From Streptomyces sp. M41(2017) (GTDB lineage Bacteria; Actinomycetota; Actinomycetes; Streptomycetales; Streptomycetaceae), in assembly GCF_002078175.1 (NCBI RefSeq), contig NZ_MWFK01000001.1, positions 3,968,001-4,032,000 of the forward strand: DNA of 64,000 bases, in the 5' to 3' direction. This document shows, in pieces, positions 12,952 to 62,486 of this stretch (positions are counted from its first letter, which is position 1; each line of letters begins with the position of its first letter). The notes under the pieces are model-generated. The model was given only the letters and a program-made list of their open reading frames with translations. It did no database searches and was not told the origin of the DNA. The position numbers and the translations under genes were made by a program.

Positions 12952-12964
12952 TGACGGTCCGTCA
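12952..12964. promoter_or_regulatory. TetR-like operator palindrome upstream of the SDR gene
   Basis: TGACGG-T-CCGTCA, perfect 6-bp arms around one base, 23 bp before the SDR ATG and overlapping the last codons of the nei-type gene. The form resembles TetR-family operators in actinobacteria; no TetR gene is adjacent in the window. Confidence 0.4.
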
Positions 12965-13798
12965 ATTAGTTGTTCGGTGTTGATGTACGGCTCGCCGGCC
13001 GCCCGGCGGCGTGGGGCCCGCCTGGCAGTGGGGGCACCAGTACGTGGGGCGTTCGCGGGATCCGTCGCCCTGGTCGGCGACGCGGATCGGTGTTCCGCAG
13101 CGCAGGCAGGGCCGCGGGGCGCGCCCGTACACGTAGAGGTGCTGGTCGCTGCGGCCCGTGGTGATGCGGGCCGGGCGGTCGCGGTTGAACTCCAGCAGCT
13201 TCTTCGCCAGGTCGGGCAGCTGGGCGGCCAGGCCCGAGGGCAGGGCGCCGACCGGGAGCCAGGGGGTGACGCCGAGGAGGAAGCACAGCTCGCTCTTGTA
13301 GACGTTGCCGATCCCGGCGAGATTCCGCTGGTCGAGGAGGGCTTCGCCGAGGGCGCGGTCCGGGTCGCGCAGCAGGTTCTGCAGGGCCTTGTCCGGATCC
13401 CAGTCCGGGCCCAGGAGGTCGGGGCCGAGGTGTCCGACCGCGCGGTCCTCGTCCGTGGTCCGGAGCAGTTCGAGGACGGGGAGGCGGTACCCGACCGCGG
13501 TGCGGTCCGCCGTGCCGAGGATGGCGCGGATCTGGTGGGCGGGTCCCCCGCTCCAGCGCCGGCCCGGCTCGAACACCTTCCAGGAGCCGTCCATCCGCAG
13601 ATGAGAGTGCAGTGTGAGGTCGCCCTCGATGCGGGTGAGCAGGTGCTTGCCGCGCGGAGTGACGTCGAGGACGGTGCGACCGGTGAGGTCCGCCGTGGCG
13701 AACTGCGGCACGCGGAGGTCGGAGCGGGTCAGTACCTTGCCCGCGAGGGCCTCATGCAGCCGCTTCGCGGCGTGCCAGACGGTGTCTCCTTCAGGCAT
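12962..13798 (-). CDS. nei: Fpg/Nei-family DNA glycosylase (endonuclease VIII type)
   Basis: 278 aa. Base-excision repair glycosylase/AP lyase for oxidised bases. After Met removal the catalytic Pro2-Glu3 are present (MPEGDTVWHAAKRLHEAL); MPEGDTVW is the Nei/Nei2 form rather than the Fpg form. The beta-elimination lysine lies in PRGKHLL. The helix-two-turn-helix NLAGIGNVYKSE is intact, and a zinc finger is formed by CLRCGTP and CPHC near the C-terminus. Transcribed with the SDR gene downstream (same strand, slight overlap with its upstream region). Confidence 0.9.
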   Translation of the reverse strand: MPEGDTVWHAAKRLHEALAGKVLTRSDLRVPQFATADLTGRTVLDVTPRGKHLLTRIEGDLTLHSHLRMDGSWKVFEPGRRWSGGPAHQIRAILGTADRTAVGYRLPVLELLRTTDEDRAVGHLGPDLLGPDWDPDKALQNLLRDPDRALGEALLDQRNLAGIGNVYKSELCFLLGVTPWLPVGALPSGLAAQLPDLAKKLLEFNRDRPARITTGRSDQHLYVYGRAPRPCLRCGTPIRVADQGDGSRERPTYWCPHCQAGPTPPGGRRAVHQHRTTN

Positions 13799-16800: not shown

Positions 16801-18980
16801 CCGTCGTCCGCGTGCATGACCTGGGCGTCCATGCCGTACCGCTCGGACAGCTTCGCCCCGAGGGCGAGGGCCCAGGGGGCGTGGACCTGGGCGCCGAACG
16901 GGGAGTGCACGACGACCCGCCAGTCACCCAGCTCGTCGCGGAAGCGTTCGACGACGATGGTGCGGTCGTCCGGGACGTGACCGCACGCCTCGCGCTGTTC
17001 GGTGAGGTATGCCAGGACATTGTCGGCGGCCCAGGTGTCGAGGCCCGCCGCGAGGAGGCGGAGCCGGGCGTCGTCCTGCGGCAGGGAGCCGACCTCGCGG
17101 AGGAACGCGCCGACGGCGCGGCCCAGTTCGAGGGGTCGGCCCAGCTGGTCGCCCTTCCAGAAGGGCAGCCTGCCGGGAACGCCGGGGGCCGGGGAGACGA
17201 GCACACGGTCCCGGGTGATGTCCTCGATGCGCCAGGAACTGGTGCCGAGGGTGAACACGTCGCCCACGCGGGACTCGTAGACCATCTCCTCGTCGAGCTC
17301 GCCGACCCGGCCGCCGCCCTTCTTGGGGTCGGCACCCGCGAGGAAGACGCCGAAGAGGCCGCGGTCGGGGATCGTGCCCCCGGAGGTGACGGCGAGCCGC
17401 TGGGCGCCGGGTCGGCCGGTGACCGTGCCCGCGACGCGGTCCCAGACGACGCGGGGCCTCAGCTCCGCGAAGGCGTCCGAGGGGTAGCGGCCGGCGAGCA
17501 TGTCGAGCACGGCCGTGAACGCCGACTCCGGGAGCGCGGCGAAGGGGGCCGCGCGGCGGACGGTGGTGAGCAGGTCGTCGACCTGCCAGGTGTCGAGCGC
17601 CGTCATGGCGACGAGCTGCTGGGCCAGGACGTCCAAGGGGTTGGCGGGGATCCGCAGGGACTCGATCGAGCCGGTGCGCATCCGCTCGGTGACCACGGCC
17701 GCCTGCACCAGGTCCCCGCGGTACTTCGGGAACACGACGCCCGTGGAGACCGCGCCGACCTGGTGGCCCGCGCGGCCCACCCGCTGGAGCCCCGACGCCA
17801 CGGAGGGCGGGGACTCGACCTGGATGACGAGGTCGACCGCGCCCATGTCGATGCCCAGTTCGAGACTGGAGGTGGCGACGACGGCGGGGAGACGGCCGGC
17901 CTTCAGGTCCTCCTCGACCTGGGCCCGCTGTTCCTTCGACACCGAGCCGTGGTGCGCCCGCGCGATGACGGCAGGCGCCCCCTGAGCCGCCCCCGAGCCG
18001 CCCATCAGCTCGGCGGGAGAGTGCGCTTCGTCCAGGGGCTCGCCGGTCGCCCGCTCGTACGCGATCTCGTTGAGCCTGTTGCACAGGCGCTCCGCGAGGC
18101 GCCGCGAGTTGGCGAACACGATCGTCGAGCGGTGGGACTGGACGAGGTCGGTGATCCGCTCCTCGACGTGCGGCCAGATGGAGGGCTTCTCCGCGCCGTC
18201 CTTGCCGTCGGCGGCCGGGGAGCCGCCCAGCTCGCCCAGGTCCTCCACCGGGACGACGACCGAGAGGTCGAACTCCTTGCCGGAGGGCGGCTGGACGATC
18301 TCCACCTTGCGCTGCGGGGAGAGATAGCGCGCGACCTCGTCCACGGGACGCACGGTCGCGGAGAGGCCGATGCGGCGGGCCGGCTTGGGCAGCAGCTCGT
18401 CGAGACGCTCCAGCGTGAGCGCGAGGTGGGCGCCGCGCTTGGTGCCCGCGACCGCGTGCACCTCGTCCAGGATCACCGTCTCGATGCCGGTCAGCGCGTC
18501 CCGCGTGGCCGACGTGAGCATCAGGAACAGCGACTCGGGGGTGGTGATCAGGATGTCCGGCGGGCGGGTGGCCAGCGCCCTGCGCTCGGCGGGCGGGGTG
18601 TCGCCGGAGCGGATCCCCACCTTCACCTCGGGCTCCGGCAGCCCGAGCCGCACCGATTCCTGCCGGATACCGGTCAGCGGGCTGCGGAGGTTGCGCTCCA
18701 CGTCGACCGCGAGTGCCTTGAGGGGTGACACGTACAGCACGCGGCAGCGCTTCCTGGGGTCCGCGGGCGGGGGCTTCGAGGCCAGCTGGTCGAGTGCGGC
18801 GAGGAACGCGGCCAGCGTCTTGCCGGAGCCGGTCGGGGCGACGACCAGCACGTCGGAGCCCGCGCCGATGGCCGTCCACGCCCCGGCCTGGGCCGCGGTG
18901 GGCGCGGAGAAGGCCCCCGTGAACCAGCCGCGGGTCGCGGGGGAGAAGCCGTCGAGGGCCCGATGCGTGGAGCTGACCAT
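13851..18980 (-). CDS. lhr: Lhr-type ATP-dependent DNA helicase with long low-complexity insert
   Basis: 1709 aa, larger than E. coli Lhr (about 1538 aa). Superfamily 2 3'-5' helicase linked to DNA repair. Order: Walker A APTGSGKTLAAF (about 47), SPLKALAVD motif Ia, DEVH box ILDEVHAVAGTKRG, motif III SATVRP, helicase C with RVGRAGHQ (motif VI), winged-helix/beta-sheet core, then the Lhr C-terminal domain. Residues about 1407-1580 are a Gly/Pro/Asp/Ser-rich insert with PGxHGFPDD repeats. Start ATG 18980 (MVSSTHRALDGF) is preferred: a damage-type promoter places +1 at about this codon, and the frame upstream looks noncoding. Confidence 0.93.
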   Translation of the reverse strand: MVSSTHRALDGFSPATRGWFTGAFSAPTAAQAGAWTAIGAGSDVLVVAPTGSGKTLAAFLAALDQLASKPPPADPRKRCRVLYVSPLKALAVDVERNLRSPLTGIRQESVRLGLPEPEVKVGIRSGDTPPAERRALATRPPDILITTPESLFLMLTSATRDALTGIETVILDEVHAVAGTKRGAHLALTLERLDELLPKPARRIGLSATVRPVDEVARYLSPQRKVEIVQPPSGKEFDLSVVVPVEDLGELGGSPAADGKDGAEKPSIWPHVEERITDLVQSHRSTIVFANSRRLAERLCNRLNEIAYERATGEPLDEAHSPAELMGGSGAAQGAPAVIARAHHGSVSKEQRAQVEEDLKAGRLPAVVATSSLELGIDMGAVDLVIQVESPPSVASGLQRVGRAGHQVGAVSTGVVFPKYRGDLVQAAVVTERMRTGSIESLRIPANPLDVLAQQLVAMTALDTWQVDDLLTTVRRAAPFAALPESAFTAVLDMLAGRYPSDAFAELRPRVVWDRVAGTVTGRPGAQRLAVTSGGTIPDRGLFGVFLAGADPKKGGGRVGELDEEMVYESRVGDVFTLGTSSWRIEDITRDRVLVSPAPGVPGRLPFWKGDQLGRPLELGRAVGAFLREVGSLPQDDARLRLLAAGLDTWAADNVLAYLTEQREACGHVPDDRTIVVERFRDELGDWRVVVHSPFGAQVHAPWALALGAKLSERYGMDAQVMHADDGIVLRLPDADLMGMDLLDRAPTKAGTEYDADQAPVGAADVAFDKGEVNQIVTDQVGSSALFAARFRECAARALLLPRRSPGKRTPLWQQRQRAAQLLQVASEFGSFPIVLEAVRECLQDVFDVPGLTELMGDIESRKVRLVEVTTTEPSPFARSLLFGYVAQFLYEGDSPLAERRAAALSLDSRLLAELLGQAELRELLDADVLAELESELQWLTEDRRIKDVEGVADLLRLLGPLTDAELAERGAEPHWAQELAAARRAIRVRIAGADHWAAIEDAGRLRDALGTALPVGVPEAFTEPVKDPLGDLLARYARTHGPFTSTTAAARFGLGTAVTDGALHRLAAGGRVVQGEFHPAGIGQEWCDAAVLRRLRRRSLAALRHELEPVPPAALAQFLPQWQHVGSGHGLRGIDGLVRAVEQLQGASVPASALEKLVLPSRVAGYAPALLDELTAAGEVVWAGAGSLPGKDGWVSLYLADAAPLLLPAAHPLELTALHQSVLDTLTGGYGLFFRQIADQVRATTHPDATDPQLADTIWDLAWSGRLTNDTLAPMRSLLGSGRTAGSTAHRAKRSIPRGRYGALTGGARPPSRTGPPTVAGRWSLLPDREPDATVRAHALARTLLDRHGVVTRGAVAAEGVEGGFSAVYRILSAFEDSGQARRGYVVEGLGAAQFAMDGAVDRLRAAANARDRGDGSSPLMSPGGHGFPDDSPGAHGFPDDHGLPRGRGSARGPADVPGFPDLSGLPGTGGRGDASGRLDPDGDGDGTSFGSPGVDGHEPAFGAPGLAGPGFDDPGSGDGGAHTFSADSAFSAGSPYADASGHPPAPSRRNASPYGYGPTGSPGPADRGFNGRSRSRATSPAVVLAAADPANAYGAALPWPESPTEAGHKPGRKAGSLVVLVDGELTLYMERGGKTLLAWPADPQSPVGEDVRLHAAAEALAACARAGSLGTVTVERVNGASALTSPLGTLLEAAGFIATPRGLRLRA

Positions 18981-18986
18981 GCGTCC

Positions 18987-19009
18987 ATCCTGCACCCGCT
19001 CACTGACAA
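18987..19009 (-). promoter_or_regulatory. RecA-independent damage promoter (PafBC/RecA-NDp type) of lhr
   Basis: On the minus strand: TTGTCAGTG (19009-19001), an 8-nt gap, then CAGGAT (18992-18987), 6 nt before the ATG at 18980. The upstream nonamer is a perfect match to the known motif TTGTCRGTG-N8-TANNNT; the -10 differs only in its first base. The arrangement predicts a leaderless mRNA. Confidence 0.75.
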
Positions 19010-19199
19010 TCGCTCTGACCTGCGCGGATGCACTGGCGGAACCGGTCCGTCGGCCGGCGTCCGGCGGGATCGGGCGAGGGCCGCGGTGGACGCCCGCGGT
19101 GGCTGCGGCTGCGGGATGTGGCGGACGCTCGCGGTGGCCGCGGCCGGGGATGGGGTCGCGTCCACGGTGGCTCCGGCCGAGGTGGCGGAGAATGAGGGC

Positions 19200-20192
19200 G
19201 TGGCAGGTTCGGGGCAGGAGCGGGCACGGCACTGGCAGTACGCGGAGCTGCCCGGTGTCGATCTCCTGCGCGCCCGCTACGTCGAGAAGATCTTCGTGCG
19301 GCACACCCACGAGAACTTCGTGATCGCCGCCATCGACGAGGGCGTCGAGGTCTTCCACCACGGCGGCGTCGACCAGTACGCGGGTCCGGGCGCGCTGGCC
19401 CTCGTCAACCCCGACACCCCGCACACCGGACGCGCAGGCGTCCCCGAAGGCTGGCGCTACGGCGCCGTGTACCCCTCCCCGGACCTCGTCGCGGAGATCG
19501 CCGCCGAGACCACCACCCTGCGCGGTGCCCCCGGATTCACCCGGCCCGTCCTCGACGACCCCTACGCGGCCGGCCTGGTCCACCAGGTGCTCCGGGCCGC
19601 CGACGAGGGCAACGCGCTGGCCGCCGACACCCTGCTGCGGGTCGCCGTGACCCGGCTGCTGCGCCGGAACGGCGGGCCCCTGCCGCAGCGGGCCGTGCGG
19701 ACCGCGGGCGGCCGTCTCGCCGCACGCGCGCGTGCCGTGCTGGAGGAACGGATGGCCGAGCCGCCGACACTGGAGCGGCTCGCCACCGACCTCGGCACCA
19801 GCTCGTTCGCCCTGCTGCGCGCGTTCCGGGACGCCTACGGGATGCCGCCCCACACCTGGCTGACCGACGCCCGGGTGCGCCGCGCACGCCACCTCCTGGA
19901 CGCCGGTTCCGCGCCCGCCGAGGCGGCCGTCGCCGTCGGCTTCACGGACCAGCCCCACCTCAACCGCCACTTCACCCGGATCGTGGGCGTGCCCCCGGGT
20001 GCCTACCAGCGCGAGCGCAAGAACGTACAAGACGGCGCGGGGCACCTCCTCGTACCGTCCGACACGTGGCAGAACAGACAGCTCTCGCGGACCGAACCAG
20101 TGAAGACGGCGGAAAACCCGACGCCGCCGTCGTCCGCGACGCACTCGGAGTCGGGGTCGCCGTCGGACTGTCCGGTTTCGCCTTCGGGGTGA
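19200..20192 (+). CDS. AraC-family transcriptional regulator
   Basis: 330 aa. An AraC N-terminal cupin arm (about 20-150, HTHENFVIAAIDEGVEVFHH and NPDTPHTG) precedes a double-HTH domain (about 190-285, LATDLGTSSFALLRAFRDAY and AVAVGFTDQPHLNRHF). The cupin probably senses a small effector; the divergent-looking AzlCD exporter downstream suggests control of amino-acid export. GTG 19200 is taken because the cupin homology starts just after it and GAGAAT lies 6 nt upstream. The last ~40 residues overlap azlC in another frame by 127 nt. Confidence 0.85.
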   Translation: MAGSGQERARHWQYAELPGVDLLRARYVEKIFVRHTHENFVIAAIDEGVEVFHHGGVDQYAGPGALALVNPDTPHTGRAGVPEGWRYGAVYPSPDLVAEIAAETTTLRGAPGFTRPVLDDPYAAGLVHQVLRAADEGNALAADTLLRVAVTRLLRRNGGPLPQRAVRTAGGRLAARARAVLEERMAEPPTLERLATDLGTSSFALLRAFRDAYGMPPHTWLTDARVRRARHLLDAGSAPAEAAVAVGFTDQPHLNRHFTRIVGVPPGAYQRERKNVQDGAGHLLVPSDTWQNRQLSRTEPVKTAENPTPPSSATHSESGSPSDCPVSPSG

Positions 20193-24643: not shown

Positions 24644-24826
24644 GGCGCACAGCCTGCCGGGCGGCCCCGGACGACGTCGTCGTACGGCCGGAGACACCGG
24701 TGCTGCGCCCGGGGGAGTAGCCCGGAACGGGTGCGCGCCGGGCCCGTGACGAGCGCGGATCCCAGGAGTTGTCGGACGGTGAACGTAGTCTCGGAAGTGC
24801 CGCGTGGTGCGCTTGACACGAAAATC

Positions 24827-24850
24827 GAACATCCATTCTTATGGAAGTTC
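24827..24850. promoter_or_regulatory. SOS-box-like composite palindrome upstream of recA
   Basis: GAAC-ATCC-ATTC (24827-24838) is a one-mismatch version of the LexA box GAAC-N4-GTTC. It is the left half of a larger near-palindrome in which GAAC-A-TCCAT (24827-24836) mirrors ATGGA-A-GTTC (24841-24850). A TTGACA (24813-24818) lies just upstream. Streptomyces recA is known to be LexA controlled; the extended symmetry is the unusual part. Confidence 0.6.
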
Positions 24851-24936: not shown

Positions 24937-24959
24937 TTGTCAGTGGCAGGCGTTAGCGT
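24937..24959 (+). promoter_or_regulatory. RecA-independent damage promoter (RecA-NDp/PafBC type) of recA
   Basis: TTGTCAGTGGC (24937-24947), 6 nt, TAGCGT (24954-24959). This matches the published mycobacterial RecA-NDp motif at every fixed upstream base. Predicted +1 near 24966 gives a leader of about 37 nt to ATG 25003. Confidence 0.8.
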
Positions 24960-62463: not shown

Positions 62464-62486
62464 CTGTCAGTGGCGCCCCGTAGGCT
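62464..62486 (+). promoter_or_regulatory. RecA-independent damage promoter of the dinG-like gene
   Basis: CTGTCAGTGGC (62464-62474), 6 nt, TAGGCT (62481-62486), 9 nt before ATG 62496. One mismatch (first base) in the nonamer TTGTCRGTG; correct N8 spacing to TANNNT; nearly leaderless. Confidence 0.75.

Follow-up and report, generated by a model that had tools for sequence, protein, structure and literature searches.

On the minus strand of the window (the whole 64,000-nt stretch analysed, from Streptomyces sp. M41(2017)), the gene of the ATP-dependent helicase Lhr, in whose product the domains DEAD, Helicase_C, DEAD_assoc and WH_Lhr to WH4_Lhr were found, is followed by a gene encoding a nei2-like DNA glycosylase (Table 1). 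Both genes likely belong to one operon, and their order is the same as in the mycobacterial lhr-nei2. In mycobacteria, lhr-nei2 protects against interstrand crosslinkers, and Streptomyces produce crosslinking antibiotics such as mitomycin. A regulator gene diverges from lhr, and recA lies about 6 kb away.

Read on the minus strand from 19009 to 18987, the lhr upstream sequence consists of TTGTCAGTG-AGCGGGTG-CAGGAT, followed by GGACGC and the ATG at 18980, with exactly 8 nt between the box and the -10 element and exactly 6 nt between the latter and the start codon, all as the original prediction had it. That prediction also claimed a match to TTGTCRGTG-N8-TANNNT, which holds for the box (with its TGTCRGTG core) and for the spacing, the two hallmarks of RecA-NDp (PafBC) promoters, but not for the -10 element: CAGGAT retains A-11 and T-7 and carries C instead of T at -12. 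Because of this departure from TANNNT, the lhr site is a one-mismatch hit to the RecA-NDp motif, in a relaxed form that is common to other repair genes of the genome. The start codon falls at the predicted +1, a geometry that leaves no space for a ribosome-binding site. As for the parts of the promoter, the last four bases of the spacer (GGTG) are near-invariant in Streptomyces lhr, their TG occupying -14/-13, and the discriminator has G at -6 in 76/76 Streptomyces and G at -5 in 74/76. Further upstream, a CAGGTC element (within GCAGGTCAG) was observed; of the 77 Streptomyces loci, 58 (7 expected) have CAGGTC or GACCTG 5' of the lhr box, frequently at a distance of exactly 13 nt. The element was rejected as a common component of PafBC promoters, since only 8 of the 50 sites examined carry it or its complement within 60 nt.

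Table 1. Features of the lhr locus and of other damage-type sites in the window
Feature	Position	Strand	Remark
nei2-like Fpg/Nei-family DNA glycosylase gene	12962..13798	-	52 nt after the lhr stop
lhr, ATP-dependent helicase, 1709 aa	13851..18980	-	
Predicted lhr transcription start, A of ATG (leaderless)	18980	-	deduced from geometry
6-nt discriminator GGACGC, -10 to start codon of lhr	18981..18986	-	
-10 element CAGGAT of the lhr promoter	18987..18992	-	non-consensus C at -12
8-nt spacer AGCGGGTG of the lhr promoter	18993..19000	-	
PafBC recognition element (-26 motif / RecA-NDp box) TTGTCAGTG	19001..19009	-	predicted -29 to -21
CAGGTC element 5' of the lhr box	19017..19022	-	predicted -42 to -37
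AraC-family regulator gene, divergent from lhr	19167..20192	+	
LexA site of recA, TCGAACATCCATTC	24825..24838	+	same sequence as the recA site of S. venezuelae (PMC9380542)
Exact RecA-NDp promoter of recA, TTGTCAGTG-N8-TAGCGT	24937..24959	+	T-12 type
One-mismatch RecA-NDp site CTGTCAGTG-N8-TAGGCT	62464..62486	+	9 nt before the ATG of a DinG-like helicase gene

The strongest evidence that the lhr site is real is its conservation. For the comparison, which covered the lhr upstream regions of 77 Streptomyces and 54 usable ones from other families of the class, a locus qualified with 7 or 8 of the 8 core bases, A-11 and T-7, the base at -12 being left out of the scoring, and with a start codon 4-10 nt downstream of the -10 element; an earlier scan without the start-codon requirement yielded mostly identical sites. 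The scan of other Streptomyces lhr upstream regions that had been suggested at the outset bore the prediction out, since the site is kept in 76/77 loci with an in-frame ATG 6-7 nt after the -10 element; the full 8/8 core is present in 69/77, and TGTC is invariant across the 76. Beyond the genus, 40/54 class loci keep the site (against 0.05% of dinucleotide shuffles), all 40 with an ATG or GTG 6-9 nt from the -10 element, as expected of the leaderless start that had been proposed, and a good core is absent in the other 14. Furthermore, among 78 named loci, which come from Nocardioides, Actinomadura, Kribbella, Amycolatopsis, Streptomyces and others, 52 keep it; this set, recovered with the query L154, is free of mycobacteria and includes a few Streptomyces that may overlap the first set. 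L154 was rejected as a mycobacterial query, its closest named relatives being Nocardioides. Across the 76 Streptomyces loci, the information content amounts to about 1.9 bits per motif column versus 0.3 bits in the -60 to -20 flank. The distance from -10 to ATG is 6 nt in 45 Streptomyces species and 7 nt in 31, which shifts the upstream frame, so that upstream in-frame starts are unconserved and the ATG is the lhr start; from this geometry, the +1 is predicted on or adjoining the A of the ATG.

The motif also exceeds chance well beyond this locus. The window holds four copies of TTGTCRGTG (0.49 expected) and eight full motifs with up to 2 mismatches (1.24 expected). Genome-wide, 31 exact motifs contrast with 0 in the reversed control, and 75 sites with 2 if any base is allowed at -12. 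Exact motifs were carried by 150/150 sampled Streptomyces genomes, with 5-44 in each and 0-2 in the controls, S. venezuelae not being singled out in these counts. In the genome under study, the genes 3' of exact sites comprise recA, dnaX, radA, rarA, uvrB, ruvC and UDG, together with genes for an O6-methylguanine methyltransferase and an AlkZ-like glycosylase and thyX, and at relaxed sites the series extends to ligA, dinB and holA, to a gene resembling holB and to a further alkyltransferase-like gene (radA, L008, and an rpsF-like gene, L007, were identified from translation alone). A plausible coding start lies 3-12 nt after the -10 element in 25 of the 70 sites examined, and in 22 of these 25 the distance is 6-7 nt; judging by these spacings, leaderless starts appear to be a habit of the regulon, lhr among them.

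Several other sites deserve mention in their own right. Within the window, the DinG-like helicase gene is a third regulon member, and a variant site, TTGTCGGAC-N8-TAGTCT (24769-24791, +), precedes the LexA box of recA; its TGTCGGAC variant is also found at recA of other families and is perhaps a second form of the motif. Elsewhere, a pair of PafBC-type sites, divergent and separated by 38 bp (G000:C1:2954946-2955029; L011, L195), serves a SWIM zinc-finger gene and a MoxR-type AAA ATPase gene, and a further SWIM gene (L019) is likewise preceded by a leaderless site. Several near-identical leaderless PafBC-type sites in G167 and G231 coincide in part with LexA-like boxes (e.g., TGTCGGTGTTCGAATGTATGTTCGAAATATG), an arrangement with the appearance of a multicopy gene family under double damage control, and in G176 five sites that resemble one another, of the TGTCGGTGGGTGCGGGTAAGATCATTTGCATG type, mark a further multicopy family whose promoters are leaderless and of the damage type.

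Which protein reads the motif in Streptomyces? The genome encodes PafB and PafC side by side, next to pafA (Pup_ligase), their best solved relatives being the M. smegmatis PafBC chains of 7p5x (E=7e-58 for PafB and 7e-54 for PafC). Furthermore, the recognition-helix residues F, R, F and R of PafB, named in PMC6789036, are kept at the same spacing. There are, nonetheless, ten WYL-domain matches in the genome, and one WYL-domain regulator distinct from PafB/PafC (L062:1501-2498) is preceded by its own leaderless PafBC-type promoter, which suggests a putative regulatory cascade. Such a protein might read the motif in place of PafBC, but with PafB/PafC orthologs at hand that conserve the recognition residues, and with a motif equal to the mycobacterial PafBC one, this is very improbable.

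A second question is whether lhr could be damage-induced through LexA, as part of the SOS response, the match to TTGTCAGTG being incidental. The S. coelicolor ortholog of Rv3297 (Nei2) is sco5760 (PMC2734929), and since lhr lies about 6 kb from recA, with nei2 at SCO5760, the S. coelicolor lhr is by position sco5761. On the same grounds SCO5815 was rejected as lhr, and its mention in HrdB ChIP-seq was dropped. The expression of sco5761 rises (log2 1.54) together with that of recA, recX, lexA, dnaE2 and uvrA on topA up-regulation/supercoiling imbalance, and the joint induction of sco5761, recA and lexA is discussed there as LexA-type (PMC6637917). Against this, a motif scan found no SOS/LexA box in the lhr intergenic region, where the best match has 5/12 mismatches (the recA stretch used for comparison began just past the LexA site at 24825 and hence does not act as a positive control), and the TGTCRGTG box is conserved far above chance. 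A LexA origin of the induction is therefore just as hard to credit as a different WYL reader. The least probable explanation is an ordinary constitutive promoter of the housekeeping σ factor (HrdB) or of another one, with which a -10-like hexamer and a leaderless start would be compatible and to which the likeness of TTGTCA to the -35 sequence TTGACA might point, but a gap of just 11 nt separates TTGTCA from the -10 element, much less than a -35 needs, the scan of the intergenic region found no HrdB-type -35/-10 promoter (the best HrdB-like pairs were poor), and the same box at the same spacing marks a DNA-repair regulon.

The site is thus very probably a leaderless, PafBC-activated promoter of lhr that depends on the housekeeping σ factor, and it probably serves lhr-nei2 together. 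That lhr belongs to the PafBC response in Streptomyces, as originally proposed, remains a prediction, supported by the conservation, the repair regulon, the presence of PafB/PafC, the mycobacterial lhr-nei2 and sco5761; likewise, that lhr begins directly at a deeply conserved damage-type promoter of the PafBC (RecA-independent) kind is a well-supported prediction from sequence. PafBC is activated by single-stranded DNA and works by σ adaptation (PMC11804915), and the mycobacterial lhr-nei2 is PafBC-regulated and damage-inducible (PMC11323726). By analogy, we infer that this mechanism also acts here, with the 5' end as predicted: DNA damage would give rise to single-stranded DNA that activates PafBC; this would engage TTGTCAGTG at about -26 through the recognition helix of PafB and bridge to HrdB, substituting for the absent -35 contact; RNA polymerase would then open the non-canonical -10 element CAGGAT and begin transcription with the A of the start codon, so that the lhr mRNA would lack a leader. 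Damage induction would depend on the stretch TGTCAGTG of the lhr promoter.

Unexpectedly, the lhr promoter has kept a non-standard -10 element without the first T across the class. The base at -12 is C in 76/76 Streptomyces; C in 29, G in 8, A in 3 and T in none of the class loci; and C in 39, G in 8, A in 5 and T in none of the named set. T is therefore found in 0 of 168 qualifying lhr loci (some species overlapping), whereas recA promoters scored in the same way have it in 35/35; this contrast spans many families, and a p-value was left out because the sequences are related by descent. The conserved non-T would presumably keep basal transcription of lhr low and raise its dependence on the activator. 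In this genome, TG is present at -15/-14 or -14/-13 in 15/26 non-T-12 sites versus 0/24 T-12 sites, a pattern that was spotted first and tested afterwards. A further three Streptomyces genomes show TG at -15/-14 in 34/60 non-T-12 versus 2/54 T-12 sites (p=2e-10; G047, one of the three, is not significant by itself, and orthologous promoters are shared among the genomes). The TG of lhr lies one base nearer, where the pooled set shows no enrichment, and is accompanied by the G at -6. As TG at -15/-14 is absent in Streptomyces lhr, the canonical extended -10 assignment was rejected, and lhr is of the non-T-12 type without being a canonical extended -10 promoter. A broader reading, for and against which the case is about evenly balanced, is that PafBC promoters of Actinomycetes come in two stable types, T-12 (recA) and non-T-12 (lhr, dinB, ligA and others), with an extended -10 TG or a G-rich discriminator making up for the σ contact lost in the latter, and that each gene would have held its type over deep time, and with it a set degree of activator dependence; the TANNNT consensus would accordingly overlook about half of the regulon. 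That T-12 is missing in a gene-specific manner throughout the class suggests a promoter-by-promoter tuning of activator dependence within a σ-adaptation regulon, and would explain members missed by searches with the published consensus.

How does this compare with what has been described? An initial search suggested that the M. smegmatis motif was not conserved in S. venezuelae, and a PafBC damage response in Streptomyces was stated as an open question (PMC9380542). Given the counts above, such an absence is unlikely to hold for the genus and, with the motif in all the sampled genomes and located before repair genes, the question becomes directly testable at lhr. RecA-NDp motifs have been predicted or shown in Streptomyces for other genes, according to passages of PMC2375139 and PMC5087735. 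The damage motifs predicted by SIGffRid in S. coelicolor and S. avermitilis (67 genes, PMC2375139) have the same box and are repair-rich, the passage concerned dealing with neither class-wide conservation, leaderless starts nor two -10 types. The pairing of lhr with PafBC has precedent in mycobacteria; on a limited check of the open-access literature, neither this pairing in Streptomyces nor the two conserved types of -10 element appear to have been reported. The Streptomyces recA promoter (S. rimosus, Ahel et al. 2002, cited in PMC2375139) and that of SCO6735 (PMC5087735) share with lhr the TTGTCAGTG box, the 8-nt spacer, A-11 and T-7; recA differs in its T-12 (35/35) and its LexA site, whereas the base at lhr is C, replaced by A or G in some other families, and that site is lacking. 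The M. tuberculosis PafBC motif, TGTCGG-N10-TANNNT (PMC8151990), has the core and spacing seen at lhr, but would miss the lhr type because it demands TA at -12/-11. Finally, the PafBC-dependent lhr-nei2 of mycobacteria (PMC11323726) has the same regulator genes and the same function class as the Streptomyces pair, the base-by-base comparison with its promoter resting on genomes of the class rather than on named mycobacteria.
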